Shown piece by piece: positions 123 to 18,874 of a stretch of DNA of 38,024 bases. Made by a program: the position numbers and the translations under genes. Below the pieces are notes generated by a model, which saw only the letters and a program-made list of their open reading frames with translations, ran no database searches and was not told the DNA's origin. Origin of the DNA: an uncultured Geobacter sp. (GTDB lineage Bacteria; Desulfobacterota; Desulfuromonadia; Geobacterales; Geobacteraceae). Position 1 is the stretch's first letter; each line of letters opens with the position of its first letter. Where the stretch lies: positions 1-38,024 of the forward strand of contig CAIYDQ010000253.1 in assembly GCA_903925075.1 (NCBI GenBank), written 5' to 3'.

Positions 123-1214
123 GTGAACGAACTGATCGACGCCTTCGTGGGTCCGATCAACGTCACCGCAGAATACGTGGACCGCATCTCAAAGGGGGAC
201 ATCCCGCCGAAGATCACCGACACCTACAACGGCGACTTCAACGAGATCAAGCTGAACCTGAACAACTGCATCGACACCATGCAAGGCTTGCTCGACGAGA
301 CCGCCAGGCTCATCAAGGCGACCAAGGACGGCAAGCTCGACACCCGCGGCAACGCGGCGGGTTTCGCCGGCGGCTGGGGAGTGCTGGTCGGCGGAGTGAA
401 CGAGCTGATCGACGCCTTCGTCGGCCCGATCAACGTCACCGCCGAATACGTGGACCGCATCTCCAAAGGGGACATCCCGCCCAAGATCACCGACGCCTAC
501 AACGGCGACTTCAACGAGATCAAACTGAACCTCAACAACTGCATCGACGTCATGACGAGCCTGCTCGAGCAAACCAACATCCTGATCCGGGGCGCGGCCG
601 ACGGCGACTTGGACAAGCGCGCCAACGCCGATCTCTTCGTCGGCGGCTGGAAACAGCTGGTGTCGGGGGTTAACGACACGGTCGGCAACATCGTCGATCC
701 GCTCAGGGTGACGGCCGACTACGTGGACAAGGTGGCCAAGGGGATCATCCCGCCCGCCATCGCCACTCAGTACAAGGGCGAGTACAACGTCATCAAGGGC
801 AACCTGAACGCCATGGTCAAGATGATGAACGAGCTTTTGGAGCAGACCGGCATCCTGATCAAGGGCGCGGCCGACGGCGACTTGGACAAACGCGCCAACG
901 CCGAGCTGTTCGTGGGGGGGTGGAACAAGCTGGTGGTGGGCGTGAACGACACGGTCGGCAACATCGTCAACCCGCTGATGGTGACGGCCGACTATGTCGA
1001 GCGCATCTCCAAGGGGGACATGCCGCCGCTCATCACCGCCGAATACCGGGGGCAGTACAACCTGATCAAAAACAACCTGAACGTGCTCGTGGAGGCGACC
1101 AACAGGATCACCGAGGCGGCCAAGGAAGTGGCCGGCGGCAACCTGATGGTGAACCTGAAAGAGCGCTCGGCGCAGGACGAGCTGATGCACGCCCTGTCCG
1201 CCATGGTCGGCAAA
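123..1214 (+). repeat. Four tandem 273-bp in-gene repeats encoding HAMP units
   Basis: Repeat boundaries fall at 123, 396, 669 and 942, an exact 273-bp (91-codon) period; a fifth, decayed unit precedes 123. Units 1 and 2 differ by a single residue over their first 50 codons and are nearly identical in DNA. Units 3 and 4 are more diverged. The array is a substrate for unequal recombination and for assembly collapse. Confidence 0.85.
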
Positions 1215-2126
1215 CTGGTGGAAATAGTGGCGGACGTGAAGAACGCCGCCGACAACGTGGCCAGCGGCAGCCTCGAGCTGTCGTCCAACGCCCAGTCCAT
1301 GTCGGAAGGGGCCTCGGAGCAGGCAGCCGCGGCCGAGGAGGCATCGGCCTCCATGGAGCAGATGTCGGCCAACATCAAGCAGAACGCGGACAACGCCCAG
1401 CAGACCGAGAAGATCGCGGTCAAGTCCTCCGAGGACGCCCAGGAGGGGGGCAAAGCGGTGGCGGAGACGGTCCAGGCCATGAAGACCATCGCCGGCAAGA
1501 TCTCGATCATCGAGGAAATCGCCCGCCAGACCAACATGCTGGCGCTGAACGCGGCCATCGAGGCGGCGCGCGCCGGCGAGCACGGCAAGGGATTCGCCGT
1601 GGTGGCGAGCGAGGTGAGAAAGCTGGCCGAGCGCAGCCAGCTTGCCGCCGGCGAGATTTCCAAGCTCTCCGTCTCCAGCGTGGAGGTGGCCGAGAAGGCC
1701 GGAGCCATGCTCTCCAACATCCTGCCCGACATCCGCAAGACGGCCGATCTGGTCCAGGAAATCAACGCCTCGAGCAAGGAGCAAGATACCGGTGCGCAAC
1801 AGATCAACAAGGCTATTCAGCAACTGGACAAGGTCATCCAACAAAATGCCTCGGCCAGCGAGGAAATGGCTGCCACAGCCGAGGAGCTATCGTCTCAGTC
1901 GGCCCAGCTGCAGTCCACCATCGCCTTCTTCCGGATGGACGACCATTCGGCAAATCGTCAGCAGCGGCAGGTGGTTGCCAAGGCTCAGCCGGTAAAAAGC
2001 GCCGCCAAGGTCGACCCGAGGGCTATCAAGCAAGTGAAGTCGAACGGCAACGGGAAATCGGCCATGGGCCACAGCCTCGATCTCAACGATCGCGGGGCGA
2101 GCGATTCGGATTTCGAAAAGTTCTAG
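123..2126 (+). CDS. Methyl-accepting chemotaxis protein with poly-HAMP array (N-terminally open)
   Basis: Cytoplasmic signalling part of a chemoreceptor that would drive CheA through CheW. Residues 1-364 are four 91-residue repeats (GTG/GTT boundaries at 123, 396, 669 and 942), each combining a HAMP-like half ([16 protein letters not shown]) with a divergent HAMP half ([12 protein letters not shown]). Residues about 370-620 form the helical signalling hairpin, with the conserved tip [20 protein letters not shown] and methylation-type helices rich in Glu, Gln and Ala. No transmembrane segment or ligand domain is visible in this part. There is no CheR-docking pentapeptide at the C-terminus (ends DSDFEKF). 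The GTG start at 123 is only the first start after the amber codon; its Shine-Dalgarno is poor, so it may not be a true start. First gene of the che run, 85 bp before cheW. Confidence 0.85.
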
Positions 2127-2211
2127 CAACAGGGCGTAGAGTTAACTCGACGGCGGTAACTCTTCGGGGGGGCCGGGAACGGTCGCGAGACCCCATCAAT
2201 CGGAGGAGCAG

Positions 2212-2724
2212 ATGAGCGAAACAGCTACGGCGATAGCGACGGCGGCAAGCGGAGTCCAGCAGTTTTTAACGTTCCGGCTCGGCGAGGAGATCTTCGCCGT
2301 GGAGGTGGCCAAGGTACGGGAGATCCTGGACGTCAGCACCATCACCAAGGTGCCGCAGACCCCCGACTTCATGCGCGGGGTAATCAACCTGCGCGGCGGC
2401 GTGGTGCCCGTGATCGATCTGAGGCTGAAGCTGGGGCTGACCCGCACGGAGAGCACGGTGAACACCTGCATCATCGTGCAGGAGATCCTCATCGGCGACG
2501 AGACCGTCGTCCTTGGCACCCTGGCCGATTCGGTGCAGGAGGTGCTCGATCTGGAGGGTTTGCAGATCGAGGCCGCGCCGCGCATCGGCACCAAACTGAA
2601 CACCGACTTCTTGAAAGGGATGGCGAAGCACAACGACGGCTTTCTGATGGTGCTCGACATCGACCGGATCTTTGCCGCCGGCGATTTCCAGTCGGAGCCG
2701 GAACTGCAGGGCGACGCGGCCTGA
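2212..2724 (+). CDS. cheW: CheW-type chemotaxis adaptor
   Basis: Couples the receptor to CheA in the cytoplasm. The 170-residue protein is one CheW domain: QFLTFRLGEEIFAVEVAKVR opens the SH3-like fold, followed by the conserved MRGVINLRGGVVPVIDLR strand-turn and a C-terminal FLKGMAKHNDGFLMVLDIDR segment. An N-terminal Ala/Thr-rich stretch of about 14 residues precedes the fold. A strong ribosome-binding site (ggaggag, about 2202-2208) sits just before the ATG. It lies between the MCP and the STAS gene, in the same direction, so it most likely serves the receptor encoded immediately upstream. Length is normal for the family. Confidence 0.95.
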   Translation: MSETATAIATAASGVQQFLTFRLGEEIFAVEVAKVREILDVSTITKVPQTPDFMRGVINLRGGVVPVIDLRLKLGLTRTESTVNTCIIVQEILIGDETVVLGTLADSVQEVLDLEGLQIEAAPRIGTKLNTDFLKGMAKHNDGFLMVLDIDRIFAAGDFQSEPELQGDAA

Positions 2725-2753
2725 AACGGCGGCTGAGCGAGGAGGGGAAGGGA

Positions 2754-3131
2754 ATGGACCAGGACCAGGTACTGGTACGGATCAACGAGCGGGAAGCTAG
2801 CACCGACATCGCCCTCAGCGGCCCTTTGACCGTTGACAGGATCGAGGAAGTCAGAGTCGGATTGTTACGGGCCTTCGCCCTCGGCAAAAGCGTGCGCATC
2901 TCCCTGGCCGCGGTGACCGACGTCGATCTCACCGGACTGCAGCTTTTGTGCAGTGCCCACCGGACTTCGATAGCCCGCGAACTCGATCTGCGCGTCACCA
3001 GCGACGGCTGCCCGGCTCTCTCCTCGGTGGCCGGCGTGGCCGGCATGCTGCGCCACATCGGCTGCCCGCAGGACGGTTGCGGGACCTGCGTCTGGAAGGG
3101 CGACTCCGCCCTCGGCAGGGAAGCTGCATGA
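2754..3131 (+). CDS. STAS-domain (anti-anti-sigma-like) protein with Cys-containing tail
   Basis: A 125-residue single STAS domain of the SpoIIAA/MlaB type. Strand DIALSGPLTVDRIEEVRVGL is followed by VRISLAAVTDVDLTGLQLLC, where Thr in DLTG occupies the position of the phosphorylatable Ser/Thr of SpoIIAA. The C-terminal tail has three closely spaced cysteines (GCPQDGCGTCVW), which I recall in other STAS proteins of chemosensory clusters; its role is unknown. The stop codon overlaps the cheA start (ATGA at 3128-3131), so translation is coupled to CheA. It may modulate CheA or act as a small scaffold or phospho-acceptor; that role is inferred only from position. Confidence 0.85.
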   Translation: MDQDQVLVRINEREASTDIALSGPLTVDRIEEVRVGLLRAFALGKSVRISLAAVTDVDLTGLQLLCSAHRTSIARELDLRVTSDGCPALSSVAGVAGMLRHIGCPQDGCGTCVWKGDSALGREAA

Positions 3132-5293
3132 AAGACGATTTCGCTCAGGCGTTCAAGGAGGAGGCTCGCGAGCAGTTGGCGGATCTGGAGAATTCGCTGC
3201 TCGCCCTGGAAGAGAGCCCCGAAGACCTGGGTCTCGTCGGCCGGATCTTCCGGACCATGCACACCATCAAGGGGTCGGGGGCCATGTTCGGCTACGACGA
3301 TATCGCCTCCTTCACCCACAACGTCGAGACCGTTTACGACCTGGTGCGCGGCGGAGAACTGGCGGTGACTAGGGAGCTGGTCGACCTGAGCCTGGCCGCC
3401 CGCGACCGGATACTGGCGATGCTGGAGGCCTCGGAGACCGGGGGGGCGGTCGACGCCGGGCTGAACGAGCAGGTGATCGACGGCTTGAAAAAGCTGATGC
3501 CGGACGGCTGCCGTGGCGAGCAGAGGCCCGCGGCCGGCGACGACCGGCAGGCCGGCGGGCGTGCCGAGGCCGGCGGGCGGGATAAAGGCGGAAGTGCTCT
3601 CGCCACCTACCGGATTCGCTTTCGACCGGAACCCGCCATGTTATGCCGCGGCAGCAACCCCTTGAGCCTGCTGCGCGAACTGCAGGAGCTTGGCAACTGC
3701 ACCACGGTGGCGCAGACCGGCGCAATCAAGACCCTGGAGGAGCTGGAGCCGGAGCTGTGCCATTTTTTCTGGGACCTGATCCTGACCACCGACAAGGGGG
3801 AGGACGCCATCCGCGACGTCTTCATCTTCGAGGACGACTGCCAGCTGTCGCTCGCCGTGATCGACGACGGCTCCGGACAGGACGAGGGGGGGGGCTACAA
3901 GAAACTGGGAGAGATCCTGGTGGAACGGGGCGATCTTACCGCCGAGCAGGTGGCGGAGCTGCTCGGCGCGCGCAAACAATTCGGGGTGTTGGCGGTGGAG
4001 GCGGGAATTCTCGGCCCCGAGAGCCTGGCTCCCGCTCTTTTGGAGCAGCAGCACGTAAGCGGCGCGCGCCGGCAGCGTCAGGAACAGGGGCAGGAATCCG
4101 CCTCCAGCATCAGGGTCCCGGCGGAAAAGCTCGACGTGCTGGTGAACCTGGTGGGCGAGCTGGTGACCGTGCAGGCCCGCCTGACCCTGGTGGCCCAGGA
4201 ATTCAAGATGCACGCGGAGCTGGTGAACGTGGCGGAGGAGGTGGAGCGACTGATCGGCGAGCTGCGCGACAACGCCCTGGACATCAGGATGCTCCCCATC
4301 GGCGCCACCTTCAGCAAGTTCAAGCGGCTGGTGCGGGACCTCTCCGCAGAGCTGGGCAAGGAGATCGAGCTCACCACCCACGGCGCCGAGACCGAGCTGG
4401 ACAAGACGGTGATCGAGAAGCTCAACGACCCGCTGGTGCACATCATCCGCAACTGCATCGACCACGGCATCGAGACCCCGCAAGAGCGGCTGGCCGGCGG
4501 CAAGCCCAGGGGGGGGACGGTGCACCTCTCCGCCGTCCACTCCGGCGACAGCGTGCTCCTCACCATCAAGGACGACGGCGCCGGCCTGAACCGCGAAGCC
4601 ATCAGGGCCAAGGCGATCGAGCGTAAACTGATCGCCCAGCACGCGGAGCTGTCGGACAAGGAGATCTGGGGGATGATCTTCGCCCCCGGCTTCTCCACCG
4701 CGGCCAAGGTGAGCTCCGTCTCCGGGCGCGGCGTCGGCATGGACGTGGTCAAGCAGGCGATCGACGGCCTGAGGGGGACGATCGAGGTGGAGAGCGCGCC
4801 CGGCCGAGGGACCGCCATCACCTTGAGGATCCCGCTGACCCTGGCGATCATCGAAAGCCTGCTGGTGCAGATCGGAGCGGATCGTTTCGTGCTGCCGCTC
4901 TCCCTGGTGGAGGAATGCATCCTGTTGAGCCGCGAGCAGATCGACCGGCAGCACGGCAGGGACCTTTTGCAGGTGCGGGAGACGATCGTCCCCTACCTGC
5001 CGCTCAGGAGGATCTTCAAGATGGCCGGCTCCCCCCCCGAGCTGCAGCAGGTGGTGATCTGCCGGATCCAGGAAAAACGGATCGGTTTCCTGGTGGACTG
5101 GGTGATCGGCGGGCATCAGACGGTGATCAAGTCGCTGGGACCCATGTACCAGCGGGTGGAGGGGGTCTCCGGGGCGACCATCCTGGGCGACGGCTCGGTG
5201 GCGCTGATCCTCGACATCCAGGCCATACTGCGGGGGGCGGAGCTGGAGACGGACCACTCTTTAGGCATCCTTTCAAAGGACGACATGGCATGA
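3128..5293 (+). CDS. cheA: Chemotaxis histidine kinase CheA with extra MshEN-like insert
   Basis: Autophosphorylating kinase of the receptor complex, 721 residues. HPt (P1) is at about 1-105 with phospho-His45 (MHTIKGSG). A P2-like alpha/beta domain lies at about 160-246. An extra helical segment at 259-307 has two LG-x6-G-x6-L/V-x3-L modules resembling the type II secretion ATPase/MshE N-domain. P3 dimerisation is at about 326-385 (IRVPAEKLDVLVNLVGELV). The P4 ATPase is at about 430-570 with the N box HIIRNCIDHGIE, G1 DDGAGL and G2 SGRGVGMDVVK. P5 (CheW-like) is at 570-705. The ATG at 3128 overlaps the STAS stop, and the TGA overlaps the next start, so the genes are translationally coupled. 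All catalytic boxes look intact. Confidence 0.95.
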   Translation: MKDDFAQAFKEEAREQLADLENSLLALEESPEDLGLVGRIFRTMHTIKGSGAMFGYDDIASFTHNVETVYDLVRGGELAVTRELVDLSLAARDRILAMLEASETGGAVDAGLNEQVIDGLKKLMPDGCRGEQRPAAGDDRQAGGRAEAGGRDKGGSALATYRIRFRPEPAMLCRGSNPLSLLRELQELGNCTTVAQTGAIKTLEELEPELCHFFWDLILTTDKGEDAIRDVFIFEDDCQLSLAVIDDGSGQDEGGGYKKLGEILVERGDLTAEQVAELLGARKQFGVLAVEAGILGPESLAPALLEQQHVSGARRQRQEQGQESASSIRVPAEKLDVLVNLVGELVTVQARLTLVAQEFKMHAELVNVAEEVERLIGELRDNALDIRMLPIGATFSKFKRLVRDLSAELGKEIELTTHGAETELDKTVIEKLNDPLVHIIRNCIDHGIETPQERLAGGKPRGGTVHLSAVHSGDSVLLTIKDDGAGLNREAIRAKAIERKLIAQHAELSDKEIWGMIFAPGFSTAAKVSSVSGRGVGMDVVKQAIDGLRGTIEVESAPGRGTAITLRIPLTLAIIESLLVQIGADRFVLPLSLVEECILLSREQIDRQHGRDLLQVRETIVPYLPLRRIFKMAGSPPELQQVVICRIQEKRIGFLVDWVIGGHQTVIKSLGPMYQRVEGVSGATILGDGSVALILDIQAILRGAELETDHSLGILSKDDMA

Positions 5294-8040
5294 ACAACGA
5301 ACCGACCGCCGTTTTGCTGATCGAGGATGACCCGGATCACGCGGAACTGATCAGGCGCTCCTTCGACGGCAACCGCAACGACATGAGGCTGGCCATCGCC
5401 GGCTCGCTGGCTCAGGCCCGCGCCTCGCTGGCGCTGGGCTCCCACTCGGTCATCGTCTGCGACTACCAGCTCCCCGACGGCACTGCGCTGGAGATGCTGC
5501 GGCACTGCACCGGCGCCGGCGACGCAGCACCTCCCTTCGTGCTCCTGACCAGTCACGGCGACGAGACCATCGCCGTCGAGGCGATGAAAGCCGGAGCGGC
5601 CGACTACATCGTCAAATCGGAGCGCTCGCTCGCCTCGCTGCCGGAGGTGTGCCGCGCCCTGATCGGCGGTTACCGGCATCGACTGGAAAAAGAGCGCCTG
5701 GAGAGGCAACTGATCCGACAATTGCAAGCCAACGAATCCGAACTGCTCGAGTCCCGGCGGCAGCTGCAAAAAAGCGAACAGTTGCTGAACAGGGCGCAAG
5801 AGATGGCCAAGGTGGGGTGTTGGGAGCTGGACGCGGCCGCCAACCGCCTCTACTGGTCCGACGAGGTCTACCGCATCTTCGGCCTGCAACCGCAACTGTC
5901 GGCGGCGAGCTATCGGGCTTTCCTGGAGGCGGTGCATCCGGACGACCGCGCCCTGGTGTCGGACGCTTTCTTTTCCTCCCTGGCCGACGGAGCCGACGCT
6001 TGCGAGTTGGAATATCGCGCGGTGCAAAAGGGGAGCGGGGAAACGCGCTTCATTCACGGCAAATGGGACCATATCAGGGATGCCTGCGGCAAGCTGGAGC
6101 GCACGGTCGGCATCATCCACGACATCACCGAGCGCAAGCTCATGGAGATGAACGTCGCCGAAAGCGAGCGTAAATACCGCACCTTGGCCGATTCGGGGCA
6201 GGCGCTGATCTGGACGACCAACGCCGAGATGCAGTGCGACTATTTCAACGAGCCCTGGCTGCGCTTCACCGGGCGCTCTCTGGCGCAGGAGCTGGGTAAC
6301 GGCTGGAGCGAAGGGGTGCATCCGGAGGACCTGGAGCGCTGCCTGCAATGCTTCGTCTCTTCCTTTAAGCGGCGTCAAAAATTCAGCATGGAGTACCGCC
6401 TCCGGCATGTCAGCGGCGAGTATCGCTGGCTGCAGGACGACGGCACCCCGCGCTTCGACGCCAAGGGGAACTTCCTGGGCTACATAGGCCATTGCTTCGA
6501 CGTCACCGACCGCAAACGGGTGGAGGAGCGGATACAGCAGAGCGAGGCGAAGTTTTCCAAGGCCTTCGACAACGCCCCCATCATGATCAGCCTCAGCAAC
6601 CTGGAGGACGGCGCCTATCTGGACGTGAACCGGAAGTTCTGCGAGCTGACCGGCTTCAGCAGCGCAGAGGCCATTGGCAGGACCGCTCTGGAGCTGAGAA
6701 TCATCGCCCCTGAGGACCAGCGGCGGGTGCTGGCCGAGTTGCAGCGCACGGGGCAGGTCTCCGGCATCGAGCTGACCGCTCACGCCAGGAACGGCAAGGC
6801 CATCCAGCTTTTGTACCATGGGGAGATCATCGTCGTCGACGGCCTGAGGAGGCTGCTTTCCATCTCGGTCGACGTCTCCGGACACCGCCATCTGGAGGAT
6901 CAACTGCGCCAGTCGCAGAAGATGGAGGCGATCGGACAACTGGCCGGCGGCGTCGCCCACGATTTCAACAACATCCTGACGGTGATCATGGGCTACGGAA
7001 ACATCCTCTCCATGGACGACTCGCTCGACGCGGGGGGGAAGGAGGCGGTGGATCAGATCGTCCGTTCCTCGGAGCGGGCCGCGGAACTGACCCACGGCCT
7101 TTTGGCCTTCAGCCGCAAGCAGGTCATGGCCAAGAAGATCTGCAACTTGAACGACATCGTGCGCCGGGTGCGCAATTTTCTGGTCCGGACCATCGGCGAG
7201 AACATCCAGTTCGACGTGCTCTGCGACGAGGGCCATCTGGACGTCTGCGTGGACAGCGGCCAGATCGAGCAGGTGCTGATCAACCTGGCCACCAACGCCC
7301 GGGACGCCATGCCGGGCGGCGGCACGCTCGCCATCAAGACCGATCTGCAGGAGTTGGACGCATCCTTTGTCAGCAGCCACGGCTTCGGCGCCGACGCCCG
7401 CTACGCGGTGATCACCATGTCCGACAGCGGCTGCGGCATGGACAAGGAGACCCAGAGCCGGGTGTTCGAGCCCTTCTTCACCACCAAGGCGGTCGGCAAA
7501 GGGACTGGCCTGGGGATGGCCATCGTCTACGGCATCGTGCAGCAGCACAAGGGGTTCATCTACGTCTACAGCGAGCCGGGGGTGGGGACCACCTTCCGCA
7601 TCTTTTTGCCGATTGCCGAAACGCCGCAGGGGACTGCGCCGCCATCGGCCCTGCCCGATCAGCCCAAGGGGGGCGTCGAGACCATCCTGGTGGCCGAGGA
7701 CGAAGAGAGCGTGCGCAAACTGGTGGAGACCGTTCTCAAGAGGTACGGCTACCGGGTGATCCTTGCCGAGGACGGCCAGGAGTGCCTGGACAAGTTCCGG
7801 GCGCACGCGGGGGAAATCGACCTGGTGCTGATGGATATGATCATGCCCCGGAAAAACGGTATCGAGGCCTACGCAGAGATCCGGCTGCTGCAACCCGGGG
7901 TCAAGGTGCTGTATTCCAGCGGCTATGCCGCCGACTTCATACAGAAAAGCGGCGTGCAGCAAGACCAGATCGAGATGATCATGAAGCCGGTCAAGCCGAT
8001 GGAGCTGTTGAGGAAGGTGCGGGAAATCCTGGACAGGTAA
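5290..8040 (+). CDS. Hybrid histidine kinase, REC-PAS-PAS-PAS-HisKA-HATPase-REC
   Basis: A soluble 916-residue phosphorelay protein. N-terminal receiver at about 7-125 with acceptor Asp58 (VCDYQLPDG). A coiled linker at about 130-165 is followed by three PAS folds at about 170-283, 293-410 and 418-533. HisKA has phospho-His557 in GGVAHDFNNIL. The HATPase has N box LINLATNARDAMP, G1 SDSGCGMD and G2 GKGTGLGMAIVYGIV. C-terminal receiver at about 797-916 with Asp849 (LVLMDMIMP) and Lys899. No transmembrane segment is visible, so input is probably cytoplasmic, through PAS ligands and through phosphorylation of the N-terminal receiver, possibly by the adjacent CheA. Start overlaps the cheA stop (ATGA). 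Confidence 0.93.
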   Translation: MNNEPTAVLLIEDDPDHAELIRRSFDGNRNDMRLAIAGSLAQARASLALGSHSVIVCDYQLPDGTALEMLRHCTGAGDAAPPFVLLTSHGDETIAVEAMKAGAADYIVKSERSLASLPEVCRALIGGYRHRLEKERLERQLIRQLQANESELLESRRQLQKSEQLLNRAQEMAKVGCWELDAAANRLYWSDEVYRIFGLQPQLSAASYRAFLEAVHPDDRALVSDAFFSSLADGADACELEYRAVQKGSGETRFIHGKWDHIRDACGKLERTVGIIHDITERKLMEMNVAESERKYRTLADSGQALIWTTNAEMQCDYFNEPWLRFTGRSLAQELGNGWSEGVHPEDLERCLQCFVSSFKRRQKFSMEYRLRHVSGEYRWLQDDGTPRFDAKGNFLGYIGHCFDVTDRKRVEERIQQSEAKFSKAFDNAPIMISLSNLEDGAYLDVNRKFCELTGFSSAEAIGRTALELRIIAPEDQRRVLAELQRTGQVSGIELTAHARNGKAIQLLYHGEIIVVDGLRRLLSISVDVSGHRHLEDQLRQSQKMEAIGQLAGGVAHDFNNILTVIMGYGNILSMDDSLDAGGKEAVDQIVRSSERAAELTHGLLAFSRKQVMAKKICNLNDIVRRVRNFLVRTIGENIQFDVLCDEGHLDVCVDSGQIEQVLINLATNARDAMPGGGTLAIKTDLQELDASFVSSHGFGADARYAVITMSDSGCGMDKETQSRVFEPFFTTKAVGKGTGLGMAIVYGIVQQHKGFIYVYSEPGVGTTFRIFLPIAETPQGTAPPSALPDQPKGGVETILVAEDEESVRKLVETVLKRYGYRVILAEDGQECLDKFRAHAGEIDLVLMDMIMPRKNGIEAYAEIRLLQPGVKVLYSSGYAADFIQKSGVQQDQIEMIMKPVKPMELLRKVREILDR

Positions 8041-8103: not shown

Positions 8104-9678
8104 ATGAATATGGCGCACCAGCATGTCGCAACCAGCTACATGGAGCACGGCTACTGTTTTTCCTGGGAGGCGGGGCTGGTCTGGCTGCACGTAGCCTCGG
8201 ACGTCGCCACCGGCGTCGCCTATTACTCCATCCCGCTGGCCATGTTCTACTTCGCCTTCAAACGCCGGGACATCGTCTTCTTCAGGATCTACCTGCTGTT
8301 CGCCACTTTCATCCTCGCCTGCGGCACCACCCATTTCTTCGCCGCCTACACGGTCTACGTGCCGGCCTACTGGGCCGAGGGATACCTGAAGGCGTTCACG
8401 GCGCTGATCTCGGCGCTCTCCGCGTTCCTGTTCATCCCGCTGATCCCCAAGGCCATAGCCATGCCGAGCCTCTCCAGGGCGCTCGACGAAAACCGGCAGC
8501 TCAACGCCGAATTGACCCGCAAGGTCGACGAGTTGCAGCAGGCCTCGAAGACGCTGGAGCAGGCCCATTACGAGCTGCAGTTGAGCGAGACCCGCTTCCG
8601 GGCCACCTTCCAACAGGCGGCGGTCGGCGTGGCCATCATCGGCGCCGACGGCGGCTTCCTGGGGGTCAACAGCAAGCAGTGCGATATCGTCGGCTATAGC
8701 ACCGAGGAACTGCTCGCCATGAAATCCCAGCAGATCACCCATGTCGAGGATCGGCCGTCCACCTTGGCGCTGTTCCAAAAGGCTCTCGACGGGGAGATCA
8801 AGAACTACGCCATCGAAAAACGGTTCATCCGCAAGGACGGCAGCCACGTCTGGATCAACCAGAGCGTGTCGCTGGTGCGCGACCTGAACTCGGTCCCCGC
8901 CTACTTCATCTCCGTTTCCGAGGACATCTCCGCCAGACGGGAAACGGAACAGGAAAAAGAGCGCCTGATCGATCAGCTCCAGGACAAGACCACGGAGCTG
9001 GAGCGCTTCATCTACACCATCTCCCACGATCTGAAGAGCCCCCTGATCACCATCTCCGGTTTCCTGGGTTTTCTGGAGGAGGATTTCCGCTCGCAGAACG
9101 CCGCCGGCTTCAACTCCACCGTCTCCCGCATCTCGCTGGCCTCGGAACGGATGAAGCAACTGCTCGACGAGTTGCTGGAGTTGTCCCGCATCGGCAGACA
9201 GATGAGTCCGCCGCAGCAGGTCGATCTGGGGAGTCTGGTGGCCGAGGCGATGGAGGTGGTCGCCGGACGCATCAGTGCAGCCGGGGCGATGGTCGAGGTG
9301 CAAAGCGCGCTGCCGCAGGTCGAGGTCGACAGGCAGCGCCTGCTGCAGGTCTACGAGAACCTGATCGACAACGCGGTCAAGTTCTCGGCCAATTCGCAGC
9401 CGCCGCGCGTCTGGATCGGCGCACGGCTGGACGGCTCGGAGCCGGTCTTTTTCGTTGGGGACAACGGCATCGGCATCAAGCCGGCCTACCTCGACAAGGT
9501 CTTCGACCTGTTCGAGAAGCTCGATCCGCGCAGCAGCGGCACCGGGGTGGGACTGGCCATCACCCACAGGATCATCACCATCCACGGCGGCAGGATCTGG
9601 GCGGAATCCGACGGAGAGGGGCGCGGCGCGGTTTTTTGTTTCACATTGCCAAACAGGGAGAGAGGGGCAAGGTCATGA
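8104..9678 (+). CDS. Membrane histidine kinase with ETR1-like ethylene-binding domain
   Basis: Sensor kinase of 524 residues. Residues about 20-117 carry three membrane helices matching the ethylene-binding domain of plant ETR1 and cyanobacterial Etr1. Asp33, Tyr40, Ile43, Pro44, Cys73 and His77 have exactly the spacing of ETR1 Asp25, Tyr32, Ile35, Pro36, Cys65 and His69, the last two being the Cu(I) ligands (here LACGTTHFF). A coiled linker (about 121-162), one PAS fold (about 163-280), HisKA with phospho-His308 (TISHDLKSPLITISGFL) and an HATPase (N box ENLIDNAVKFS, G1 GDNGIGI, G2 GTGVGLAITHRI) follow. There is no receiver in the protein; the next gene, overlapping by ATGA, supplies one. Ethylene or copper binding is inferred from the motif, not shown. 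Confidence 0.9.
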   Translation: MNMAHQHVATSYMEHGYCFSWEAGLVWLHVASDVATGVAYYSIPLAMFYFAFKRRDIVFFRIYLLFATFILACGTTHFFAAYTVYVPAYWAEGYLKAFTALISALSAFLFIPLIPKAIAMPSLSRALDENRQLNAELTRKVDELQQASKTLEQAHYELQLSETRFRATFQQAAVGVAIIGADGGFLGVNSKQCDIVGYSTEELLAMKSQQITHVEDRPSTLALFQKALDGEIKNYAIEKRFIRKDGSHVWINQSVSLVRDLNSVPAYFISVSEDISARRETEQEKERLIDQLQDKTTELERFIYTISHDLKSPLITISGFLGFLEEDFRSQNAAGFNSTVSRISLASERMKQLLDELLELSRIGRQMSPPQQVDLGSLVAEAMEVVAGRISAAGAMVEVQSALPQVEVDRQRLLQVYENLIDNAVKFSANSQPPRVWIGARLDGSEPVFFVGDNGIGIKPAYLDKVFDLFEKLDPRSSGTGVGLAITHRIITIHGGRIWAESDGEGRGAVFCFTLPNRERGARS

Positions 9679-10112
9679 GCGGAGAAGCGATCAACATCCT
9701 GCTGGTGGAAGACAACCCGGACCACGCGGAACTGGTCAAGCGCGGGTTGCAATCAAACAACGTCGCCAACAACGTCTTTCACGTGGAGGACGGCGAGTCG
9801 GCCCTGGAGTTCGTTTTTCAACGAGGCCCCTACGTCGGCGCCAAGCGGCCGCACCTGATACTGCTCGACCTGAGGCTGCCGCGCATCGACGGTTTGGAGG
9901 TGCTGAAGGCCCTGAAGAGCAACGAGGACTCGAAGCGCATCCCGGTGGTGATCCTGACCACTTCCGACGCCGAGATGGACATAGCCAGGGCCTACGACTA
10001 CCATGCCAACAGCTACATGGTGAAGCCGGTGAATTTCGAGAAGTTCAAGGAGCTGACCAAGACGCTCGGCTTTTACTGGTTCGTCTGGAACAAACAGCCG
10101 GAGAATCAGTAG
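9675..10112 (+). CDS. Single-domain response regulator, Rcp1-like
   Basis: A 145-residue lone receiver domain. Acidic pair VEDNPDHAEL, phospho-acceptor Asp65 (LILLDLRLPRIDG), switch Thr in ILTTSD and Lys117 in YMVKPV are present. The HANSYMVKPVNFEKF segment and the C-terminal FYWFVWNK are typical of the Rcp1/CheY-like family that partners phytochrome and PAS kinases. There is no output domain, so it probably passes phosphate on or acts by protein contact. The ATG at 9675 overlaps the TGA of the ETR1-like kinase gene, making that kinase its likely cognate donor. An upstream in-frame start at 9636 is rejected because it would overlap the kinase gene deeply and lacks conserved residues. Confidence 0.92.
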   Translation: MSGEAINILLVEDNPDHAELVKRGLQSNNVANNVFHVEDGESALEFVFQRGPYVGAKRPHLILLDLRLPRIDGLEVLKALKSNEDSKRIPVVILTTSDAEMDIARAYDYHANSYMVKPVNFEKFKELTKTLGFYWFVWNKQPENQ

Positions 10113-10118
10113 CGGCGC

Positions 10119-10160
10119 GAGCCGGCAAGGGACGCGCGGCTCCCGCCCTTATTCGGCGGG
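10119..10160. terminator. Possible stem-loops between convergent genes
   Basis: Two short inverted repeats lie in the 36-bp gap and at the edge of the convergent stops: gagccg (10119-10124) with cggctc (10137-10142), and cccgcc (10143-10148) with ggcggg (10155-10160). Neither has a T tract, so a terminator role is only suggested by position. Confidence 0.3.
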
Positions 10161-10922
10161 CCGCCGCCCGTTGGCTACGCCGAAGTCGCCTTTCACCTTG
10201 TGGAAGCAGTCCGGGCACATGCCGTGGCTGAAGGTCGCGTCCGAATGCTCCGAAAGATACTTCTCCAAATGGTGCCAGGAGTTCTCGTCGTCGCGAATCT
10301 TCTTGCAGTACATGCAGATCGGTATGATCCCTTCCAACTGCCGCATCCTCTCCAAGGTGGCTTCCTGCTCGACGATTTTTTCCGACAGGCGCCGCTGGGT
10401 TTGCAGAAGTTCCTTGTTGAGCAGCACCGAGGCCTCGTAGGTGGAGATCAGCAGGTCGACGACCCGCTGCACGTCCGGCTTGACCGTGTAGCAGGCCTCG
10501 TCGAAGACCACCGTGGTCTCGTTTTCGGGGAAACTCGCCTTTTGCGAGCGGCGCGCGCGGATGATCTCCGCGGTGCGCGAGATGAGGTAATCGGCGTTGT
10601 AGGGCTTGGAAAAAAAGTAGTCGGCGCCGCTTTCAATGGCTTGCAGCACGTCTTTGGGATTGGAAAGGCAGGTCAACAGGACCACCGGGAGCTCGCGCAT
10701 GGCTTCGGAGGCCCGGATCGCCCGGCAGAGCTGGTAGCCGTCCATCTCCGGCATGATGATGTCGGCGAAGACGATTGCCGGGAGCTCTTCTTCCAGCCGG
10801 GCCAGAGCCTCCTTGCCGCTATGCGCCACAACCGTCCTGTAGCCGTGTTCGTTGAACAACTGGCAAAGTTGCAGGGTATGAAAGGTGCTGTCGTCCACCA
10901 CCATGATCAGCCGGTTTTCCAT
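10149..10922 (-). CDS. Response regulator with C-terminal Cys4 domain
   Basis: Receiver at residues 1-125 (MVVDD, phospho-acceptor Asp54 in VFADIIMPEMDG, Lys106 in FFSKPYN). A helical linker at about 145-198 is predicted to coil. A C-terminal module has Cys203/Cys206 (PICMYCKKIRDD) and Cys236/Cys239 (GMCPDC) around a SWHHLEKYLSEHSDATFSHG core. This tail recurs at the ends of response regulators and kinases of Geobacter and Desulfo-type bacteria, as I recall; a metal-binding or redox role is plausible but unproven. ATG at 10922 starts directly at the receiver; an in-frame start at 10973 would add 17 unlikely residues. It faces the kinase operon and is transcribed towards it. Confidence 0.88.
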   Translation of the reverse strand: MENRLIMVVDDSTFHTLQLCQLFNEHGYRTVVAHSGKEALARLEEELPAIVFADIIMPEMDGYQLCRAIRASEAMRELPVVLLTCLSNPKDVLQAIESGADYFFSKPYNADYLISRTAEIIRARRSQKASFPENETTVVFDEACYTVKPDVQRVVDLLISTYEASVLLNKELLQTQRRLSEKIVEQEATLERMRQLEGIIPICMYCKKIRDDENSWHHLEKYLSEHSDATFSHGMCPDCFHKVKGDFGVANGRRPAE

Positions 10923-11075
10923 AGTAGGCTCTCGCTTTCCGCTTGGGTCGGTCGCCGGGTAGCCTATGGCCAAAACCGGGCCCTCCGTACTCTGCGTAGA
11001 GGTAGCACAGATAACTGCGATTTAGAAGTCAATTTAAATAGTATACTAACTTGGTAGACTAAATATCTTTTTTCC

Positions 11076-18758: not shown

Positions 18759-18793
18759 AAAAAGGGACCAGTTTTGTAAACTGGTCCCTTTTT
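18759..18793 (+). terminator. Rho-independent terminator, probably bidirectional
   Basis: Perfect 16-bp stem: aaaaagggaccagttt (18759-18774), loop tgt, then the exact complement through 18793, which ends in a T run. The A run on the left arm serves as the T run for the opposite strand, so it can end both the cysteine synthase transcript and the leftward tRNA-Cys transcript. Confidence 0.93.
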
Positions 18794-18799
18794 CTATGT

Positions 18800-18874
18800 T
18801 GGAGGCGGCGCCCGGATTTGAACCGGGGAATAAAGGATTTGCAGTCCTTTGCCTTACCACTTGGCCACGCCGCC
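18800..18874 (-). tRNA. tRNA-Cys (GCA anticodon)
   Basis: On the minus strand the acceptor stem GGCGGCG pairs with CGCCGCC, followed by discriminator T and an encoded CCA (18800-18802). The anticodon loop is CTGCAAA with anticodon GCA, and the T arm contains GGTTCGAATCC. Total 75 nt including CCA. pgsA lies upstream on the same strand, and the terminator at 18759-18793 lies just downstream. Confidence 0.95.

Follow-up and report, generated by a model that had tools for sequence, protein, structure and literature searches.

A putative ethylene receptor two-component system in a Geobacteraceae genome and a related clade in which the ETR1 Pro36 proline is often absent

Results

The putative receptor gene and its domains

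The DNA analysed here, a stretch of 38,024 nucleotides (the window), makes up contig C253 in a genome of 6.55 Mb and carries the gene of a putative ethylene receptor, P0001, followed directly by that of a response regulator, P0002 (Table 1). A first-pass annotation, made from the letters of the window, had described P0001 as an ETR1-like membrane domain joined through a PAS linker to a complete histidine kinase, and domain searches bear out both parts of this description. The Pfam family ETR1_N (PF25487; Ethylene receptor 1-like, N-terminal domain) matches residues 25-119 of P0001 with 107.2 bits (E 5e-31) against a cut-off of 27 and is followed in order by PAS, HisKA and HATPase_c, PAS being the only Pfam domain between membrane domain and kinase. 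All five boxes of the kinase (H, N, G1, F and G2) were found, in a reading frame that has no internal stop. P0001 is the sole ETR1_N match in the host genome, and the same family search gave none in 14 control genomes. A scan for promoters and terminators found nothing of use.

Table 1. Features of the locus, in coordinates of the window
Feature	Position	Strand	Details and basis
MCP, CheW, STAS, CheA, PAS-kinase with two receiver stretches	123..8040	+	Profile matches; membership of the receptor system not supported
EBD-PAS-histidine kinase P0001, putative ethylene receptor	8104..9678	+	524 aa, ATG start; four Pfam domains above cut-off
Ethylene-binding domain ETR1_N	8176..8463	+	About residues 25-120; Pfam and AlphaFold2 model
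Seven putative ethylene-binding residues (D33, Y40, I43, P44, I70, C73, H77)	8200..8334	+	Alignment with an ETR1 row and 93 further rows
PAS domain	8584..8955	+	About residues 161-284; Pfam PAS_3 and TIGR00229
HisKA and HATPase_c kinase core	8998..9657	+	Pfam; H, N, G1, F, G2 boxes
Receiver-only response regulator P0002, Rcp1-like	9675..10112	+	145 aa; Pfam Response_reg, PDB sequence matches
tRNA-Cys at the edge of synteny	18800..18874	-	Comparison with 12 sister genomes; receptor on the variable side

Putative ethylene-binding residues and predicted membrane structure

In the alignment, P0001 carries all seven ethylene-binding residues of ETR1, at the columns of D25, Y32, I35, P36, I62, C65 and H69. 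The first-pass annotation had named six of these at the ETR1 spacing (Asp33, Tyr40, Ile43, Pro44, Cys73 and His77); all six lie where it placed them, and the seventh, Ile70, which corresponds to ETR1 Ile62, is likewise kept. In a sequence of this composition, the seven-residue set at its fixed spacing would turn up by chance with a probability of about 6e-8 across 400 positions. ETR1 needs seven residues to bind ethylene (PMC11819568). ETR1 I35, P36, I62, C65 and H69 are named in a second source, which gives P36 as one of the residues essential for ethylene binding and models the site at the dimer interface (PMC6586836).

An AlphaFold2 model of 148 residues of P0001, built with 73 relatives, reached a mean pLDDT of 88.6. 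It used 74 of 75 alignment rows, L130 being left out, from a list that excluded six named rows, L143 and rows that could not be placed. Helices are predicted at residues 23-53, 60-85, 89-110, 113-119 and 123-147, the first three of which are the predicted N-terminal membrane helices. C73 and H77 lie one turn apart on the second predicted helix, about 40 degrees from each other on a helical wheel, and D33, Y40 and P44 share one face of the first. The first-pass annotation had named a model in which the Cys and His do not face each other as evidence against its reading; no such result was seen, the two sharing a predicted helix. With Foldseek, nothing in the PDB matched at E 0.001 (the best hit had 0.86), and a profile search for a solved relative gave two matches at chance level (E 0.38 and 0.86). 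Because no solved relative was found by sequence or by fold, the fold is purely a predicted one.

Ahead of the first membrane helix, residues 15-18 of P0001 form an HGxC motif whose Cys is present in 93 of the 95 aligned rows, the ETR1 row included. This Cys may serve like the dimer disulfide of ETR1, which involves residues 4 and 6 (PMC6586836).

The probable partner receiver

As the first-pass annotation had indicated, an Rcp1-like receiver gene overlaps the kinase stop: the ATG of P0002 overlaps the stop of P0001 by 4 bases. The acidic pair, Asp, Thr and Lys of a receiver were all found in P0002, which has no output domain; with the motifs present in both proteins and the genes adjacent, the two constitute a kinase-receiver pair. 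The best PDB match of P0002 is 5te9, a receiver without a specific name (E 2e-31), followed by 3heb and 5brj. RcpA (1k68) matches at E 1e-28 and Rcp1 (1jlk/1i3c) at 8e-28, whereas entries for chemotaxis CheY are much weaker (6azr_B, 2e-11; 1ab6, 4e-9). Two chains labelled CheY by their depositors, 3heb (2e-29) and 5ic5 (2e-28), match as well as Rcp1 does. A second receiver protein of 274 aa is encoded on the minus strand at 10149-10973, convergent with P0002, and contains an SHGMCPDC-like cysteine motif, read by eye.

Relatives and the recurrence of the pair

A scan of named genomes gave 417 relatives, of which we kept the best 80; these come from Geobacteraceae, Nitrospirota, cyanobacteria, alphaproteobacteria and others. 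The search patterns contained YYSIP or FI[LM][SA]CGT[TG]H. We surveyed 82 rows for receivers (the best 80 of the 417, the window and AzoEtr1), 78 of them with a closed frame. By phmmer, 20 of the 82 have a receiver-containing gene whose start lies no more than 60 bases upstream and 300 bases downstream of the stop, and in 13 of those 20, the window included, it matches P0002 at E 1e-30 or better.

Among the matches listed, six loci from Geobacterales/Desulfuromonadales (L069, L070, L075, L076, L081 and L086) pair an EBD kinase with a receiver, the kinases being 45-67% and the adjoining receivers 56-70% identical to those of the window (in L076 the contig ends within the receiver). The middle region was scanned in five of the six: the two closest have PAS and PocR there, one has GAF and two have nothing. 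Ethylene-binding domain, kinase and receiver thus tend to occur together while the middle is swapped, which supports the receiver as the true partner of the kinase. No adjoining receiver gene was found in L079, L082, L083 or L087, whose kinases are 47-50% identical. The nearest membrane domain, 76% identical to that of the window, is in L063; its HisKA match is weak, its contig ends inside the frame and it does not appear in the list of the 30 best kinase matches.

Two further observations concern the domain itself. Positions 4992-5408 of a 349,660-base viral contig (L192, IMG/VR) encode an ETR1_N protein of about 139 aa that stands alone, its frame containing no kinase; it scores 121 bits and keeps D, Y-x-x-IP, C and H by eye, and an ethylene-binding domain alone on a virus was unexpected. 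In the divergent ETR1_N proteins L062 (G349) and L045 (G451), Asn replaces ETR1 D25; one of the two lies within the same order and the other elsewhere in the phylum.

A clade in which the P36 proline is often absent

We built a tree of 87 membrane domains over 128 columns from an alignment of 95 rows, drawn partly from the best 80 of the 417 relatives. The 87 remained after five duplicates and two divergent rows were dropped, together with L122 for the tree or ETR1 for the count of prolines; rows identical within the domain (for example, L082/L083 and L084/L085) were counted apart. The tree was made by a quick method and many of its forks are unresolved. In it, the window groups with L063 in a clade of 32 rows (SH-aLRT 99) made up of Geobacterales, Nitrospirota and some loosely named MAGs. 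With the best 80 of 417 included throughout, the position of ETR1 P36 holds Pro in 13 of the 32 rows and Ala, Thr, Gly or Ser in 19; among the 55 other counted rows, none is without the proline. This absence from 19 of 32 clade rows was unexpected, and the protein of the window retains its proline (P44). Mapped on the tree, the P36 label changes five times, and the starred branches force two changes, which may be losses or regains. The Ser two residues before the proline has changed too in 17 of the 19 P36-less rows, and five P36-less rows have a downstream receiver-containing gene, Rcp1-like in four (counts again including the best 80 of 417). L081 and L086, two of the six loci with a similar pair, belong to the P36-less rows.

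The Cys and His are kept in 95 of 95 aligned rows, the best 80 of 417 among them, an invariance that is partly by construction because one of the search patterns contained those residues. A set of 28 domains from the family search has no such bias; 13 of them are without the proline, and all 28 keep Cys-x3-His. This set excludes matches below the cut-off in G051 and G231 (outside the order) and G519:C1 (inside it).

The chemosensory neighbourhood

The first-pass annotation had placed the system downstream of a chemosensory operon, and the genes (MCP, CheW, STAS and CheA) are real. On the same strand as the receptor, 63 bases separate the stop of the last gene of the stretch, a hybrid kinase (8040), from the receptor start (8104). 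In the chemosensory cluster itself (123-5293), the MCP carries four HAMP_2 stretches, and CheW and CheA flank a gene with a STAS domain. Neither CheR nor CheB was seen among the window genes scanned; the contig starts just upstream of the cluster. The ORF at 3643-4626 lies within the CheA gene in a different reading frame, and stops interrupt most of the matches to it.

We searched 109 related loci (duplicates included, many of them short) for CheA, CheW and MCP by tblastn at E 1e-12. CheA was found in none of the 109, MCP in four and CheW in two; places retrieved twice account for two of the MCP records and for both of those with CheW. In a Nitrospirae locus, L066, an MCP whose signalling part is 70% identical lies about 2.4 kb upstream of the receptor. 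We considered this locus as a chemosensory operon and rejected it, since genes for Tim44, CxxCxxCC and glyoxalase proteins lie between the MCP and the receptor. Among these loci, a receptor beside chemosensory genes was thus seen on the window contig only.

Host genome, distribution and synteny

The host very probably belongs to Geomonas. Its GlnD shares 83-87% identity with that of each of the 18 further genomes in the genus, and this, together with the Geobacteraceae relatives, agrees with the Geobacter-type bacterium that had been proposed from the sequence. With the host included each time, ETR1_N was found in two of 19 genomes of the genus (17 show none), four of 48 in the family, 23 of 141 in the order and six of 395 in a phylum sample, four of these six over the cut-off. 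The receptor gene is accessory. A search for the S9 hydrolase found it in four of the 19 genomes of the genus.

We compared gene order with 12 of the 18 sister genomes, one of whose stretches reaches only 3.8 kb. The order tRNA-Cys, orf18909, FAD protein, chorismate mutase, GlnD is conserved in the 12 sisters. Left of the tRNA-Cys, blastn matches to the window in the same direction extend over only 74-88 bases, at the tRNA itself, in the 12 sisters, and opposite-strand matches are MCP and hybrid-kinase genes. Some sisters have up to 6.9 kb in common there and others almost nothing, as at a hot spot of gene exchange, which the low-coordinate side of the tRNA-Cys resembles. GC content falls from 63.5% on the left of position 18790 to 56.9% on its right. 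Because synteny in the sisters stops at the tRNA-Cys, the receptor, chemosensory and liv genes sit in variable DNA.

Discussion

Our results support a model in which P0001 and P0002 are probably a bacterial two-component system with an ethylene receptor, of the same kind as AzoEtr1 and SynEtr1. In this model, Cys73 and His77 of the three-helix membrane domain would ligate Cu(I) within a dimer. Binding of ethylene, or of another small alkene, to the copper would alter the histidine kinase activity of P0001, most likely reducing it, as has been reported for ETR1 and inferred for SynEtr1. Phosphate would then move to the Rcp1-like receiver, translated together with the kinase; lacking an output domain, the receiver would act by protein contact. 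Three copper-type P-ATPases encoded elsewhere in the host genome exceed the family cut-off, which fits the model but is ordinary, 13 of the 14 control genomes also having matches above it.

An unlikely alternative is that ethylene is not the signal and that, with Cu(I) bound to its membrane domain, the system instead reports copper, redox state or a different small ligand, for example O2, CO or acetylene. The persistence of Cys and His in every aligned row, albeit partly by construction, and in every family-search domain would suit such a role, as would the missing proline in more than half of the clade rows, which include some of the best 80 of 417 relatives; described Geomonas isolates also include strict anaerobes (PMC8859169). 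However, the window protein itself retains all seven residues, Pro44 among them, and the scan of window ORFs turned up no recognisable copper-handling gene. Moreover, AzoEtr1 binds ethylene and SynEtr1 is reported to do so (PMC11819568).

It also seems quite improbable that the receptor feeds the adjacent chemosensory genes and so controls motility or type IV pili, a coupling to motility that the first-pass annotation had suggested and that proves weak at best. The shared strand and short spacing would fit such a coupling, the upstream MCP of the Nitrospirae locus is at least compatible with it, and deletion of SynEtr1 leads to faster twitching (PMC11819568). Yet the chemosensory neighbours do not recur: CheA was found in none of the 109 related loci, MCP and CheW are rare, the genes between MCP and receptor in the Nitrospirae locus are not chemosensory, and the 12 sister genomes examined are without the stretch at this place. 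Loss of AzoEtr1, in turn, leaves swimming unaltered (PMC11819568). That the pair is a decayed or neutral acquisition, intact on paper and without a role in its host, would fit its sporadic presence in the genus and its variable surroundings but is very unlikely, given that catalytic and binding motifs are kept without an internal stop and that kinase and receiver resemble neighbouring genes in the six other loci among the matches listed.

Weighing against the preferred ethylene receptor reading, the 19 P36-less rows suggest that the clade may be shifting ligand. Tentatively, Geobacterales and Nitrospirota could hold a separate branch of ethylene-receptor-like kinases in which the copper ligands are fixed and the Ser-Ile-Pro turn has been replaced at least once; some members, the window protein among them, would sense ethylene and their sisters copper itself or another gas, some of them through a similar pair. 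These natural variants offer a ready-made test of the role of the proline and of other ligands.

Receptor-based ethylene sensing has been shown directly in few microbes, and ethylene in soil depends on water saturation (PMC11819568). Several described Geomonas species came from paddy soil, according to abstracts. Receptors of this kind could therefore let an iron-reducing group, with N2 fixers among its members, respond to rice roots or to microbial ethylene.

Among known systems, the closest in layout is AzoEtr1/AzoRR-etr1, which we compared through the corresponding gene of A. brasilense strain 2020WEIHUA_K (L143), with the same lengths and layout. Both kinases are ETR1_N-PAS-HisKA-HATPase proteins (524 aa in the window, 525 aa in AzoEtr1), both have a receiver-only regulator overlapping the kinase stop (145 and 135 aa) and both have all seven binding residues. 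The proteins align over residues 10-516 at about 30% identity, and their membrane domains are 50% identical. In contrast, the kinase cores are only 28% identical, with different H-boxes (AHEMSQPL versus SHDLKSPL), and the regulators 27% identical over 63 residues, so that kinase and regulator do not fall into the AzoEtr1 subfamily. The window system therefore appears to have been built with a different kinase-regulator module, and any function carried over from AzoEtr1 would come through the membrane domain alone. AzoEtr1, whose host is a root-associated alphaproteobacterium, binds ethylene; its loss reduces biofilm and it affects root colonisation (PMC11819568).

Synechocystis SynEtr1, with Slr1213 and Slr1214, likewise has an EBD on a histidine kinase and regulators encoded nearby, but SynEtr1 additionally serves as a light receptor and has a phytochrome-like domain, whereas P0001 has only PAS; Slr1213 is a predicted transcription factor, unlike the window regulator with its lack of an output domain (PMC6508509). 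No phytochrome-like domain of the SynEtr1 type follows the membrane domain of P0001. Arabidopsis ETR1 shares the seven residues at matching columns and the three membrane helices. It also has a GAF domain and an attached receiver. Plant receptors differ further in signalling mainly independently of the kinase (PMC11819568).

The Geobacterales loci L069 and L070 resemble the window most in the signalling parts (kinases 67% and 64%, receivers 70% and 63% identical) and differ in the region that links membrane domain to kinase, where PAS is followed by a PocR sensory domain. In a search at the level of titles and the beginnings of abstracts, with subscription journals mostly outside its scope, we found no report of an ethylene receptor in Geobacterales; the excerpt of PMC8396549 mentions only plant Etr1. 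Many proteobacteria and cyanobacteria were predicted in a 2020 review to encode ethylene-binding domains (PMC7700396), and since the AzoEtr1 layout has also been published as that of an ethylene-binding receptor, a precedent absent from the first-pass annotation, the window pair is not a new kind of system. Ordinary in this respect, it draws its interest from its host and from its P36-less sisters.
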